Below are positions 33,890 to 36,769 of a DNA stretch of 64,000 nucleotides, one piece after another. The stretch is from the NCBI RefSeq assembly GCF_013342145.1, contig NZ_JABUQZ010000001.1, positions 1,054,001-1,118,000 of the forward strand, read 5' to 3'. The DNA comes from Haloterrigena gelatinilytica (GTDB lineage: Archaea; Halobacteriota; Halobacteria; Halobacteriales; Natrialbaceae). The notes beneath the pieces are model-generated. The model was not told the DNA's origin. It was given only the letters and a program-made list of their open reading frames with translations, and made no database searches. Made by a program: the position numbers and the translations under genes. Within the stretch, counting starts at the first letter, position 1, and each line of letters begins with the position of its first letter.

Positions 33890-34642
33890 ATGGATCGCAG
33901 GCAGATCCTCAAGGCGGCCGGCGTAACGTCGACGATTCCCCTCGCGTCCGGGCTCGGCGCGGCGCGCAGTGACGAGCGCAAGCGGGGCAACGGTCGAGAT
34001 CGGGGACAGGCGCGACGGGAGTGTGCCCAATCGCAGTGTATCCACCCGGTGCTCGGCTACTCGGGTCTCGAGGGCGAGGAACGGGTGCCGTCGCCGCTCC
34101 AGCCCGACTACGAGGTCGATCTGATCACGCGACCGCCGGAGGAGGGAGGGGAACGGCCGCTACCGGAGTTCTTCTTCCAACCGACCGGCCTCGCCGTCGA
34201 TCCCGGTGACGTGGTCCGCTTCAACCTGGAGACGCCCGACCACACCGTCACCGCGTATCATCCACAGCTCGGCCGGCAACGCCGCGTTCCCGACGGGGTC
34301 CCGGCGTTCTCGTCGCCGGTCTTGGGCACGGGGACGTTCTGGCTCTACCGCTTCGATAAGCCCGGCGTTTACGACGTCCTGTGTGCGCCCCACGAGATCT
34401 TCGGGATGGTCGCGCGGATCGTCGTCGGTGACCCGCCGGCCGAACCGGCGTTCGGTCCGTCGGGACCGGTCGAGACGAACGGCGAGGAAGTCGAGCTTCG
34501 ACCGCCGGCGCTCACCGCGGAACTGGTGTACGAGGATCCGCTATTGGAGCCGTCGACGATCGCGGAGCGGGGGAGCGTGAGTTGGGACGAGCTCGCAGCT
34601 GAGAGCAAAGAGGTACTGGTCGAGTTCCCCGAAGAAGAGTAG
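33890..34642 (+). CDS. Tat-exported cupredoxin (plastocyanin/halocyanin-like)
   Basis: A 250-residue blue-copper electron carrier outside the cytoplasmic membrane. It opens MDRRQILKAAG, a Tat signal, with a hydrophobic stretch to about residue 24. The cupredoxin domain (about 90-180) has His118 in PDHTVTAYHP and the motif C165-x2-H168-x4-M173 (VLCAPHEIFGM), a complete type 1 copper site. The region before the domain has two extra Cys (45, 50), and the C-terminus has a 70-residue extension rich in Glu. The ATG at 33890 matches the Tat motif. It is followed, on the opposite strand, by the four-cluster ferredoxin gene. Confidence 0.85.
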   Translation: MDRRQILKAAGVTSTIPLASGLGAARSDERKRGNGRDRGQARRECAQSQCIHPVLGYSGLEGEERVPSPLQPDYEVDLITRPPEEGGERPLPEFFFQPTGLAVDPGDVVRFNLETPDHTVTAYHPQLGRQRRVPDGVPAFSSPVLGTGTFWLYRFDKPGVYDVLCAPHEIFGMVARIVVGDPPAEPAFGPSGPVETNGEEVELRPPALTAELVYEDPLLEPSTIAERGSVSWDELAAESKEVLVEFPEEE

Positions 34643-34731
34643 TCGACTCGAGGCGCGATACCGGCCGGCATCGCGCCGTCCCGACGCGGCTCGTTCCGTC
34701 TGTGTTACCGCTCGAGCGCTCCGAGCGCCGG

Positions 34732-36072
34732 TCAGTCGGGCAGTTCGAGTCCGACGGTCCCCTGATCGAGGACGTCCGTTCGGTTGTCCACGTGGCCGAC
34801 CTCGTCGTAGTCGATCGGCCCGTCGACCTGGTGGGCATCGGCGCTCGGCTCGTCCCCGATATAGACGATGTTCGGTTCGGTCCCGATGTCCTCGAGGAGC
34901 CGGAACGTCGACTCGGCGGTACCGACCTCGGCCCGAACGAGCGCTCGCGCCTCCCGTTCGGTCAGCCCGTCGTCGCTGTCCTCGGCCGGGTCGGTCTCGC
35001 CGGTGAGGACGGCGATCGCCTCCTGCAGTTCGTCCTCGGGCGGGTTCTGCGCTCGCACGCGAGCCAGTTCGGGATCCTCGAGGTACCGTCGCGTGTCGCT
35101 TTCGGGGTCGTTCATGTCGCCGAACTGGATCGCCTCGGGCGGACAGGCGTCCTCGCAGGCGGTCCGGCCGACGAACTCCTCGCCTTTGGTGCCGTCCTGG
35201 CGGGTCGCACAGAACGTACACTTCTCCATGACGCCCCGCGGCCCGCGGCTCCCGACCGGACGCCCGCGGGCGTCGTAGACGTGATCGTCCTCGAGTTCGT
35301 CCGCCGAGACGCCCGGATCGTCCCACTGGAAGTAGTTGACGCCGTAGGGACAGGCGACCTGACAGTACCGACAACCGATGCAGACGTCGTAGTCGGTCAA
35401 CACGAGGCCGTCGCTGTCCCGCGTGTGACGGGCGGTCGTCGGACAGACCTTCTCGCAGGGCGCGTCCGTACAGTGTTGACAGGGGCGAATGAGTCGGTTA
35501 TGGCCGTCGGACGCGCTCTCCTCGTAGTCGAGGACGTACATCCAGTTGGCCCCCCGCTCCCAGTTGTGCTCCTCGGCGCAGGCGACGACGCAGGAGAGGC
35601 AGCCGTCGCACTGCTCGAGGTCGAGCACCATCCCCCACTGCGTTCCCTCGTCGTCCCCCTCGGACGCCTCCGGCGCCTCGGCCGCCGACGGCGCCGTATC
35701 GTCGTCCGCCGTCGCGACCCACGCGCTGAGTCCGACGGCTCCCGCCCCGGCGCCGACCTTGCGCATCACGCCGCGACGCGATTCCTCGTCGACGCCGAAC
35801 CGCGAACCCGTCTCCGCGTCGCGCCCGTCGCCCGGCCGCTCGAGCGGTCGGTCGTCCTCGCCGAACTCCGCGACCACGGCCTCGTGATACCGGTCGTAGA
35901 ACTCGGCTTCCGAGAGCTCTCCCGCCGTGACTCGCCGGGCGTCCCGCGCCATCTCGAGCCCGAGTTCCGCGTCGTGGTCGGCGTCCTCGAGCATCCGTTC
36001 GAGTTCCGTCCGTCGGTCACCCTCGGGCCATCGGCTCGGCCCGTCGTCGGTTACGTTCTCGTTGTCACCCAT
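34732..36072 (-). CDS. Four-cluster [4Fe-4S] ferredoxin-type electron-transfer subunit (DsrO/NrfC/PsrB-like)
   Basis: An electron-transfer protein usually paired with a molybdopterin oxidoreductase or membrane quinol subunit. The 446-residue protein has an N-terminal helical region (1-95), a Tat-like RRGVMRKVG at 99-107 with a short hydrophobic stretch to about 120, and 16 Cys in four clusters: 155/158/161/165, 198/201/206/210, 231/234/237/241 and 285/288/306/310. The C-terminus is long and acidic. No catalytic Mo subunit or membrane anchor gene lies next to it in the window. The Tat-like motif is about 100 residues in, so either the true start is later or the motif is vestigial. ATG at 36072 chosen. 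Confidence 0.88.
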   Translation of the reverse strand: MGDNENVTDDGPSRWPEGDRRTELERMLEDADHDAELGLEMARDARRVTAGELSEAEFYDRYHEAVVAEFGEDDRPLERPGDGRDAETGSRFGVDEESRRGVMRKVGAGAGAVGLSAWVATADDDTAPSAAEAPEASEGDDEGTQWGMVLDLEQCDGCLSCVVACAEEHNWERGANWMYVLDYEESASDGHNRLIRPCQHCTDAPCEKVCPTTARHTRDSDGLVLTDYDVCIGCRYCQVACPYGVNYFQWDDPGVSADELEDDHVYDARGRPVGSRGPRGVMEKCTFCATRQDGTKGEEFVGRTACEDACPPEAIQFGDMNDPESDTRRYLEDPELARVRAQNPPEDELQEAIAVLTGETDPAEDSDDGLTEREARALVRAEVGTAESTFRLLEDIGTEPNIVYIGDEPSADAHQVDGPIDYDEVGHVDNRTDVLDQGTVGLELPD

Positions 36073-36343
36073 CGTAGCCACCCACCGTTGTGTGGATTCC
36101 GATTACGTGCCGTGCTAGCTAATGCCTCGAATGAGGGCTCGCGATGAGATAACGGACGCCCTTGTACTCGCCGGGGCGTCGAGACGGGGCGGCGATTCGT
36201 TCGGGAGAGGGGACGGTATCGCACGGGTTTCGGGTCCGTCTCGAGCGCGGTGTCGGACTCGAGCGGTCGGAACCGTTCGGCGCGACTGACCGTCCGGATC
36301 GCCGCACACCGGACTTTTGGCGTGGTAACACATAGCAAATAGT

Positions 36344-36769
36344 ATGGCAGACGGGGAGTCAGGGGAGTCGCGGCGGCGGGTGCTTCGGGCCACGGGATGT
36401 GGGTCGGCGATCGTGCTCGCCGGGTGCGTGTCCGTAGGCGAAGACACCAGTCAGGAAGCCGGCGAACCGGCGCTCGACCGACCGGCCGACTGGTGTTTCG
36501 ATCGACTGGACGACGCCGTCCCGGAGGCGGAAGCGAACGCGGTGAGCATCGACGGGATCGAACGGAAGCCGGAGGGCGAGCTGGCGTCGAAGGAGGAAGC
36601 CAGCTACCAGTGCGGGCCCGCGGACGGGAACCACTGCGGCACCTGTACGTACTACATCGACGACCGCGACGGCGACGCGGTCGGAGCGTGCACCGAGGTC
36701 GCCGGCGAGATCCGCTCGGCGGACTGGTGCGCGCTCTGGGCGCCGCGAGAGGAGCTTCAGAACGAGTAA
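36344..36769 (+). CDS. High-potential iron-sulfur protein, Tat lipoprotein
   Basis: A small extracytoplasmic electron carrier. The 141-residue protein has a Tat motif SRRRVLRATG, a hydrophobic stretch and the lipobox LAGC (Cys28), so it should be membrane-anchored by lipid. The HiPIP domain has Cys 98, 101, 116 and 129 (HCGTCTYY, GACTEVAGEI, WCALWAPRE), the standard cluster pattern; Cys90 is extra. The gene is divergent from the four-cluster ferredoxin (271 bp apart) and close to the cupredoxin, so the three could share electron-transfer duties. Confidence 0.9.
   Translation: MADGESGESRRRVLRATGCGSAIVLAGCVSVGEDTSQEAGEPALDRPADWCFDRLDDAVPEAEANAVSIDGIERKPEGELASKEEASYQCGPADGNHCGTCTYYIDDRDGDAVGACTEVAGEIRSADWCALWAPREELQNE

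Follow-up and report, generated by a model that had tools for sequence, protein, structure and literature searches.

Within 2.9 kb of the window (a 64,000-nucleotide stretch of the Haloterrigena gelatinilytica genome) lie genes for three redox carriers of different types, a cupredoxin, a four-cluster ferredoxin (Fd) and a HiPIP, raising the question of which electron-transfer system they serve. A sequence-only reading of this DNA had proposed that the three form an extracytoplasmic chain linking the membrane to an unlinked reductase or oxidase, and had remarked that a catalytic molybdopterin subunit was absent from the group. Domain matches agree with all three assignments, and no molybdopterin gene was found in the neighbourhood of the trio, which is flanked by unrelated genes for a transcription factor S type zinc ribbon (tfs), DUF5518, a Y-family polymerase and a DnaJ protein. 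One named close relative at the trio locus is Haloterrigena salina. The features of the locus, in window coordinates, are as follows.

33890-34642, + strand: cupredoxin, pseudoazurin-like, predicted to be Tat-exported (PF00127); a neighbour, placed outside the conserved unit
34732-36072, - strand: ferredoxin Fd, 446 aa, four-cluster, ActB/DsrO/NrfC-like electron-transfer subunit (PF16947 and Fer4); catalytic partner gene absent
35839-36009, - strand: Ferredoxin_N domain of Fd (PF16947), residues 22-78, E 2e-27
35719-35781, - strand: internal Tat-like segment of Fd, SRRGVMRKVGAGAGAVGLSAW, residues 98-118
35095-35637, - strand: four [4Fe-4S] cluster domain of Fd, residues 146-326
36344-36769, + strand: HiPIP, 141 aa, with Tat signal and lipobox at C28 (PF01355)
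36578-36748, + strand: cluster-binding region of the HiPIP, residues 79-135 (PDB alignment to 3h31 and invariant columns)
36073-36343, no strand: divergent intergenic region common to Fd and HiPIP (alignment of seven orthologous spacers)

Ferredoxin and HiPIP

Fd combines a Ferredoxin_N domain (95.5 bits against a cut-off of 25) with Fer4 dicluster domains, and its 16 cysteines fall in four motifs (155/158/161/165, 198/201/206/210, 231/234/237/241 and 285/288/306/310). Across 77 relatives, 14 of these 16 cysteines are invariant; C158 is replaced by Gly in two, and C288 by Asp in 18 paralogues. All 18 are orphan ferredoxins at a PEP carboxylase/LeuA-like locus (e.g. L119, L120 and L125), where the replacement suggests a [3Fe-4S] or an Asp-ligated fourth cluster. 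Translation of Fd could begin at ATG (36072) or GTG (36081), with relatives favouring ATG.

The position of the Tat-like motif, about 100 residues into the protein (R99-R100), had struck the sequence-only reading as odd, and proves to be a genuine, conserved trait of the family. The twin arginine is present in 77/77 relatives; it comes after Ferredoxin_N and before a K/R-rich and hydrophobic, Gly/Ala-rich stretch. A mis-called start behind the motif was ruled out, given that Ferredoxin_N is a real in-frame domain and the arginines never vary. The internal segment would place the cluster domain outside the cell, with the Ferredoxin_N domain either staying in the cytoplasm or being released after export. 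An AlphaFold model of Fd, built from six sequences, reached a pLDDT of 37.

The HiPIP exceeds the PF01355 cut-off of 22 both in the genome search (25.2 bits) and in the protein scan (23.7 bits), and its PDB matches are weak but specific, every one being a HiPIP or PioC. The cluster ligands (C98-x2-C101-x14-C116-x12-C129) are invariant in 16 relatives. An N-terminal RRR followed by the lipobox LAGC suggests a membrane-tethered, extracytoplasmic one-electron carrier. The protein resembles bacterial HiPIPs (PF01355) in cysteine spacing and Tat export, but differs from them in being an archaeal lipoprotein, gene-linked to a ferredoxin and equipped with two further cysteines, C51 and C90. Both are invariant in the 16 ferredoxin-linked HiPIPs and might pair in a disulfide away from the cluster. 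The pLDDT of the AlphaFold model (10 sequences) was 38. Elsewhere, Natronomonas aquatica encodes proteins with tandem double HiPIP domains (L254), and in one genome (G161, L258) a halocyanin-like gene directly follows the HiPIP gene. Alignment of the seven orthologous Fd-HiPIP spacers revealed a conserved T-rich element ~25–30 nt before the HiPIP start, which appears promoter-like; a scan for bacterial-type promoters and terminators gave no match, as expected for an archaeal host.

Conservation of the pair

We looked for homologues of the trio across 125 family genomes and called the genes around the hits with an in-house program. The search returned 17 close members of the HiPIP, including the window's own (E up to 4e-40), and in 16 of the 17 genomes an Fd-type ferredoxin adjoins the HiPIP gene, the lone exception being G093. 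These 16 pairs, 13 divergent and three co-directional, span six genera and about five contexts. One is the gap that separates tfs from the polymerase; genera g6 and g8 account for two more, and the others are an NrfD operon (g9) and the side of a cytochrome oxidase operon (g10). Co-conservation of all three genes, on which the proposed chain had been staked beforehand, fails for the cupredoxin only; the extracytoplasmic chain is supported for Fd and HiPIP and not for their neighbour.

Two of the contexts bear on the suggested link from the membrane to an unlinked oxidase, and both speak for it. The g9 operon (G022, G019 and G018) runs HiPIP, a 107–109 aa protein, Fd, NrfD and a small membrane protein, a gene order also found in Halostagnicola sp. 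A-GB9-2. In g10 (G028, G029, G031 and G032), the pair lies beside COX2, a COX1-COX3 fusion and COX4_pro. In most genomes with the pair, the window's included, NrfD is not beside it; those of g10 have a single NrfD, which Fd would therefore have to share. On balance, we think it probable that Fd and HiPIP together, as a two-gene unit, handle electron transfer for a haem-free quinol oxidoreductase replacing the absent cytochrome bc1.

Distribution against cytochrome b

According to two papers, how electrons pass from the quinone pool to halocyanin is an open question in haloarchaea without bc1, about one-third of the group and notably the Natrialbales (PMC3403918; PMC8305020, item e). Cytochrome b (PF13631) gave no match in the window's genome, in a search that detected it in eight controls, Haloferax volcanii among them. 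Across a class sample of 391 genomes, PF16947 occurred in 197 and cytochrome b in 293. Within the family, PF16947 was present in 80/80 genomes without clear cytochrome b (among which is counted G079, whose match was borderline with E 9.7e-4) vs 14/21 with it; outside the family it was present in 17/19 cytochrome-b-less genomes vs 86/271 others.

Outside the family PF16947 is by itself an unspecific marker, since it also occurs there as a free-standing ~80 aa protein in dms operons; a search with the orphan NrfD of the window's genome was therefore added. It took in every one of the 19 genomes outside the family that lack cytochrome b, plus 61 more, picked mostly by taking each fifth genome. 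Close NrfD homologues were found in 16/19 cytochrome-b-less genomes vs 7/61 others (Fisher p ~6e-9, treating genomes as independent despite their relatedness), or 8/61 if a 37% identical match in G355 is included. The pattern extends to a single genus, g44, in which all six cytochrome-b-less genomes carry NrfD and one of the five others sampled (G339) carries PF16947. Three cytochrome-b-less genomes outside the family have no close NrfD homologue: G396, which is 91% complete, and G129 and G195, which are small, possess other NrfD-type genes and presumably belong to organisms living anaerobically. HiPIPs of the window's type are absent from many cytochrome-b-less genomes of the family, so HiPIP can be at most one of several acceptors.

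Across the class, the wider family takes the form of an operon in which a paralogous ferredoxin is joined by NrfD, a small membrane protein, an ATPase of the Mrp/ApbC type and, in many cases, an HTH_10 regulator; in G112, G114, G008, G119 and several g63 genomes halocyanin lies directly upstream of the ferredoxin and NrfD genes. In the window's genome, the regulator before this operon seems frameshifted (L040:5877-6484; G000:C1 about 1.458 Mb) and the Mrp/ApbC gene behind it contains an internal ~240-base repeat with a stop (L040:11107-12443; about 1.463 Mb), through either assembly error or real damage.

Comparison with known complexes

The closest structural relatives of Fd and NrfD come from alternative complex III. 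Fd has its best PDB match in 6f0k_B, the ActB subunit (1.1e-31), with ArrB second, and NrfD matches ActC chains only (best 1.8e-18). Of the quinol-site residues of ActC (His139, Ser164, Asp169 and Asp253; PMC5928083, PMC8076601), the first three correspond to H121, S143 and D148 of NrfD, invariant in 66/66 NrfDs; conservation does not extend to Asp253 (Leu/Phe in alignments) or to most of the P-side half-channel. Alternative complex III (ActABCDEF), which occurs mainly where bc1 is missing and is known to pass electrons to HiPIP and haem-copper oxidase (PMC5928083), sets a four-cluster iron-sulfur subunit, the C-terminal domain of ActB, on an NrfD-type ActC with a His/Ser/Asp pocket and oxidises quinol without cytochrome b; the system proposed here would share both features. 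In contrast, the haloarchaeal system lacks the molybdopterin-like domain of ActB (Fd aligns only to residues 778-996 of 1039), and none of ActA, a multihaem protein, ActD, ActE and ActF could be recognised at the Fd-NrfD and Fd-HiPIP loci. It is also archaeal, has Ferredoxin_N and the internal Tat segment, and offers halocyanin as an alternative acceptor gene. By gene content, the Fd and NrfD proteins are not members of alternative complex III.

Fd is also related to DsrO (of DsrMKJOP) and NrfC, exported four-cluster subunits of NrfD-type complexes. DsrO (NF045797) is its best NCBIfam match (3e-47), although at 161 bits the score is under the curated equivalog cut-off of 200, and DsrMKJ genes are absent from the locus.

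The haloarchaeal DMSO reductase operons (dmsR-E-A-B-C-D type; L255, L256, L257 and L260) share more of the gene set: a Ferredoxin_N protein, an HTH_10 regulator, a four-cluster B subunit and an NrfD-type C subunit. They differ in that the Fd-NrfD loci lack the catalytic A subunit and the chaperone, Ferredoxin_N is fused to the B-type subunit with the Tat segment in between, and the NrfDs are only ~30% identical. In these dms operons, which lie in other haloarchaeal families, a free-standing Ferredoxin_N protein of 80–121 aa immediately precedes the Tat-exported DmsA, the end of its gene overlapping the DmsA start; this protein may be DmsE. In the simplest account, Fd would have arisen when, after loss of the catalytic subunit, Ferredoxin_N became fused to a Tat segment and a B-type subunit, and a haem-free substitute for complex III may have derived in this way from a DMSO-reductase-like operon.

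That resemblance gives some weight to a different reading, in which Fd, with NrfD, is a remnant or electron module of a DMSO/polysulfide-type anaerobic reductase, the gene for the catalytic subunit lies elsewhere, and the presence of HiPIP or halocyanin is incidental. The shared Ferredoxin_N, HTH_10-type regulator, DmsB-like and DmsC-like proteins make common descent plausible, and 42 archaeal NrfD-like sequences labelled DmsC, which may include the NrfDs studied here, fall in a group with ActC (PMC8076601). However, the Fd-NrfD operon loci that were read contain neither an A subunit nor a Tat chaperone, and the sequence-only reading's suggestion of a matching catalytic subunit elsewhere in the genome was not borne out: among the six loci matching PF00384, wherever the A subunit is exported an iron-sulfur B subunit is encoded with it, and a missing molybdopterin partner was rejected on these grounds. 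The near-complete conservation of the family among cytochrome-b-less genomes argues against a remnant, as does the position of NrfD, nearer to ActC (1.8e-18) than haloarchaeal DmsC is (1e-6); the closest structures to haloarchaeal DmsB are ArrB and PsrB. We therefore regard a reductase remnant as unlikely.

NrfD partners in the genome

The window's genome encodes three ferredoxins of the Fd family, namely the window's own, an operon copy (C1:1459-1462 kb) and an orphan (C1:672 kb), and two NrfDs, one in the same operon (C1:1459-1462 kb) and one orphan (G000:C1:37906-38862). The orphan NrfD is the better candidate partner because it shares 73–75% identity with the NrfD encoded in the g9 HiPIP operon, whereas the operon copy reaches 63–66%, tree support at that depth being weak.

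This separation of Fd and NrfD in the genome would suit a free-standing Fd-HiPIP relay acting apart from NrfD, for instance as a stress-protective or denitrification donor, and the orphan NrfD does have a universal stress protein gene adjacent and a copper nitrite reductase-like gene ~1.7 kb away. Set against this, Fd, HiPIP and NrfD share one operon in genus g9, and paralogues of Fd sit in NrfD operons across the class, which leaves a relay of this kind quite improbable.

The cupredoxin

The cupredoxin matches PF00127 above the cut-off (E 1e-6), has pseudoazurins as its nearest solved relatives, retains the copper ligands His, Cys, His and Met (DHTV...CAPHEIFGM) and begins with a Tat-like signal (DRRQILKAAG). 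Orthologues at ≥70% identity number 13, nine of them in genomes without a HiPIP of the window's type. Because it is not co-conserved with the Fd-HiPIP pair, the cupredoxin falls outside the unit and the trio as a single unit was ruled out: it shares the site only, and the pair is the conserved unit. A single chain of all three genes, in which the cupredoxin shuttles electrons among Fd, HiPIP and an enzyme, is highly improbable: the trio is adjacent in 4/6 genomes of the genus and the G031 HiPIP carries a fused C-terminal cupredoxin-like domain (19.2 bits, slightly short of the 21.2-bit Pfam cut-off, its orthology to the window's cupredoxin only putative), but the same tfs-side spot holds the cupredoxin without the pair in G026, G009 and G072, and the pair occurs without the cupredoxin in 12/16 genomes.

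Proposed electron path and its meaning

If Fd and HiPIP serve a haem-free quinol oxidoreductase, menaquinol would be oxidised in an NrfD-type membrane subunit, as the pocket residues suggest, the partner in the window's genome likely being the orphan or else the operon copy. By homology, electrons would enter exported Fd and run along its clusters. Adjacency, the g9 operon and the precedent of alternative complex III point to transfer from Fd to the lipid-anchored HiPIP, one electron each time, and the g10 neighbourhood points onwards to a haem-copper oxidase. In sister complexes of the family, halocyanin would probably take the place of HiPIP. For this Fd/HiPIP/NrfD chain as a whole, what the genomes display is genes, domains, ligand conservation, adjacency and distribution; we infer how the parts dock, which partners they have, the direction of electron flow, the coupling to energy and the topology. 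More tentatively, and a little short of an even chance in our judgement, bc1-less haloarchaea may be served in general by a minimal, haem-free alternative complex III, composed of NrfD and a four-cluster protein of the Ferredoxin_N type, with exchangeable iron-sulfur subunits dedicated to halocyanin or to HiPIP.

We found no papers joining halocyanin with NrfD, or HiPIP with haloarchaea, in a search that left subscription journals mostly uncovered, so that earlier proposals may exist. The distribution of Fd and NrfD provides a specific, testable candidate for the quinol-to-halocyanin step. If the proposal is true, the principle of alternative complex III would reach into the archaea, without c-type haems, and HiPIP would gain a role in that domain.
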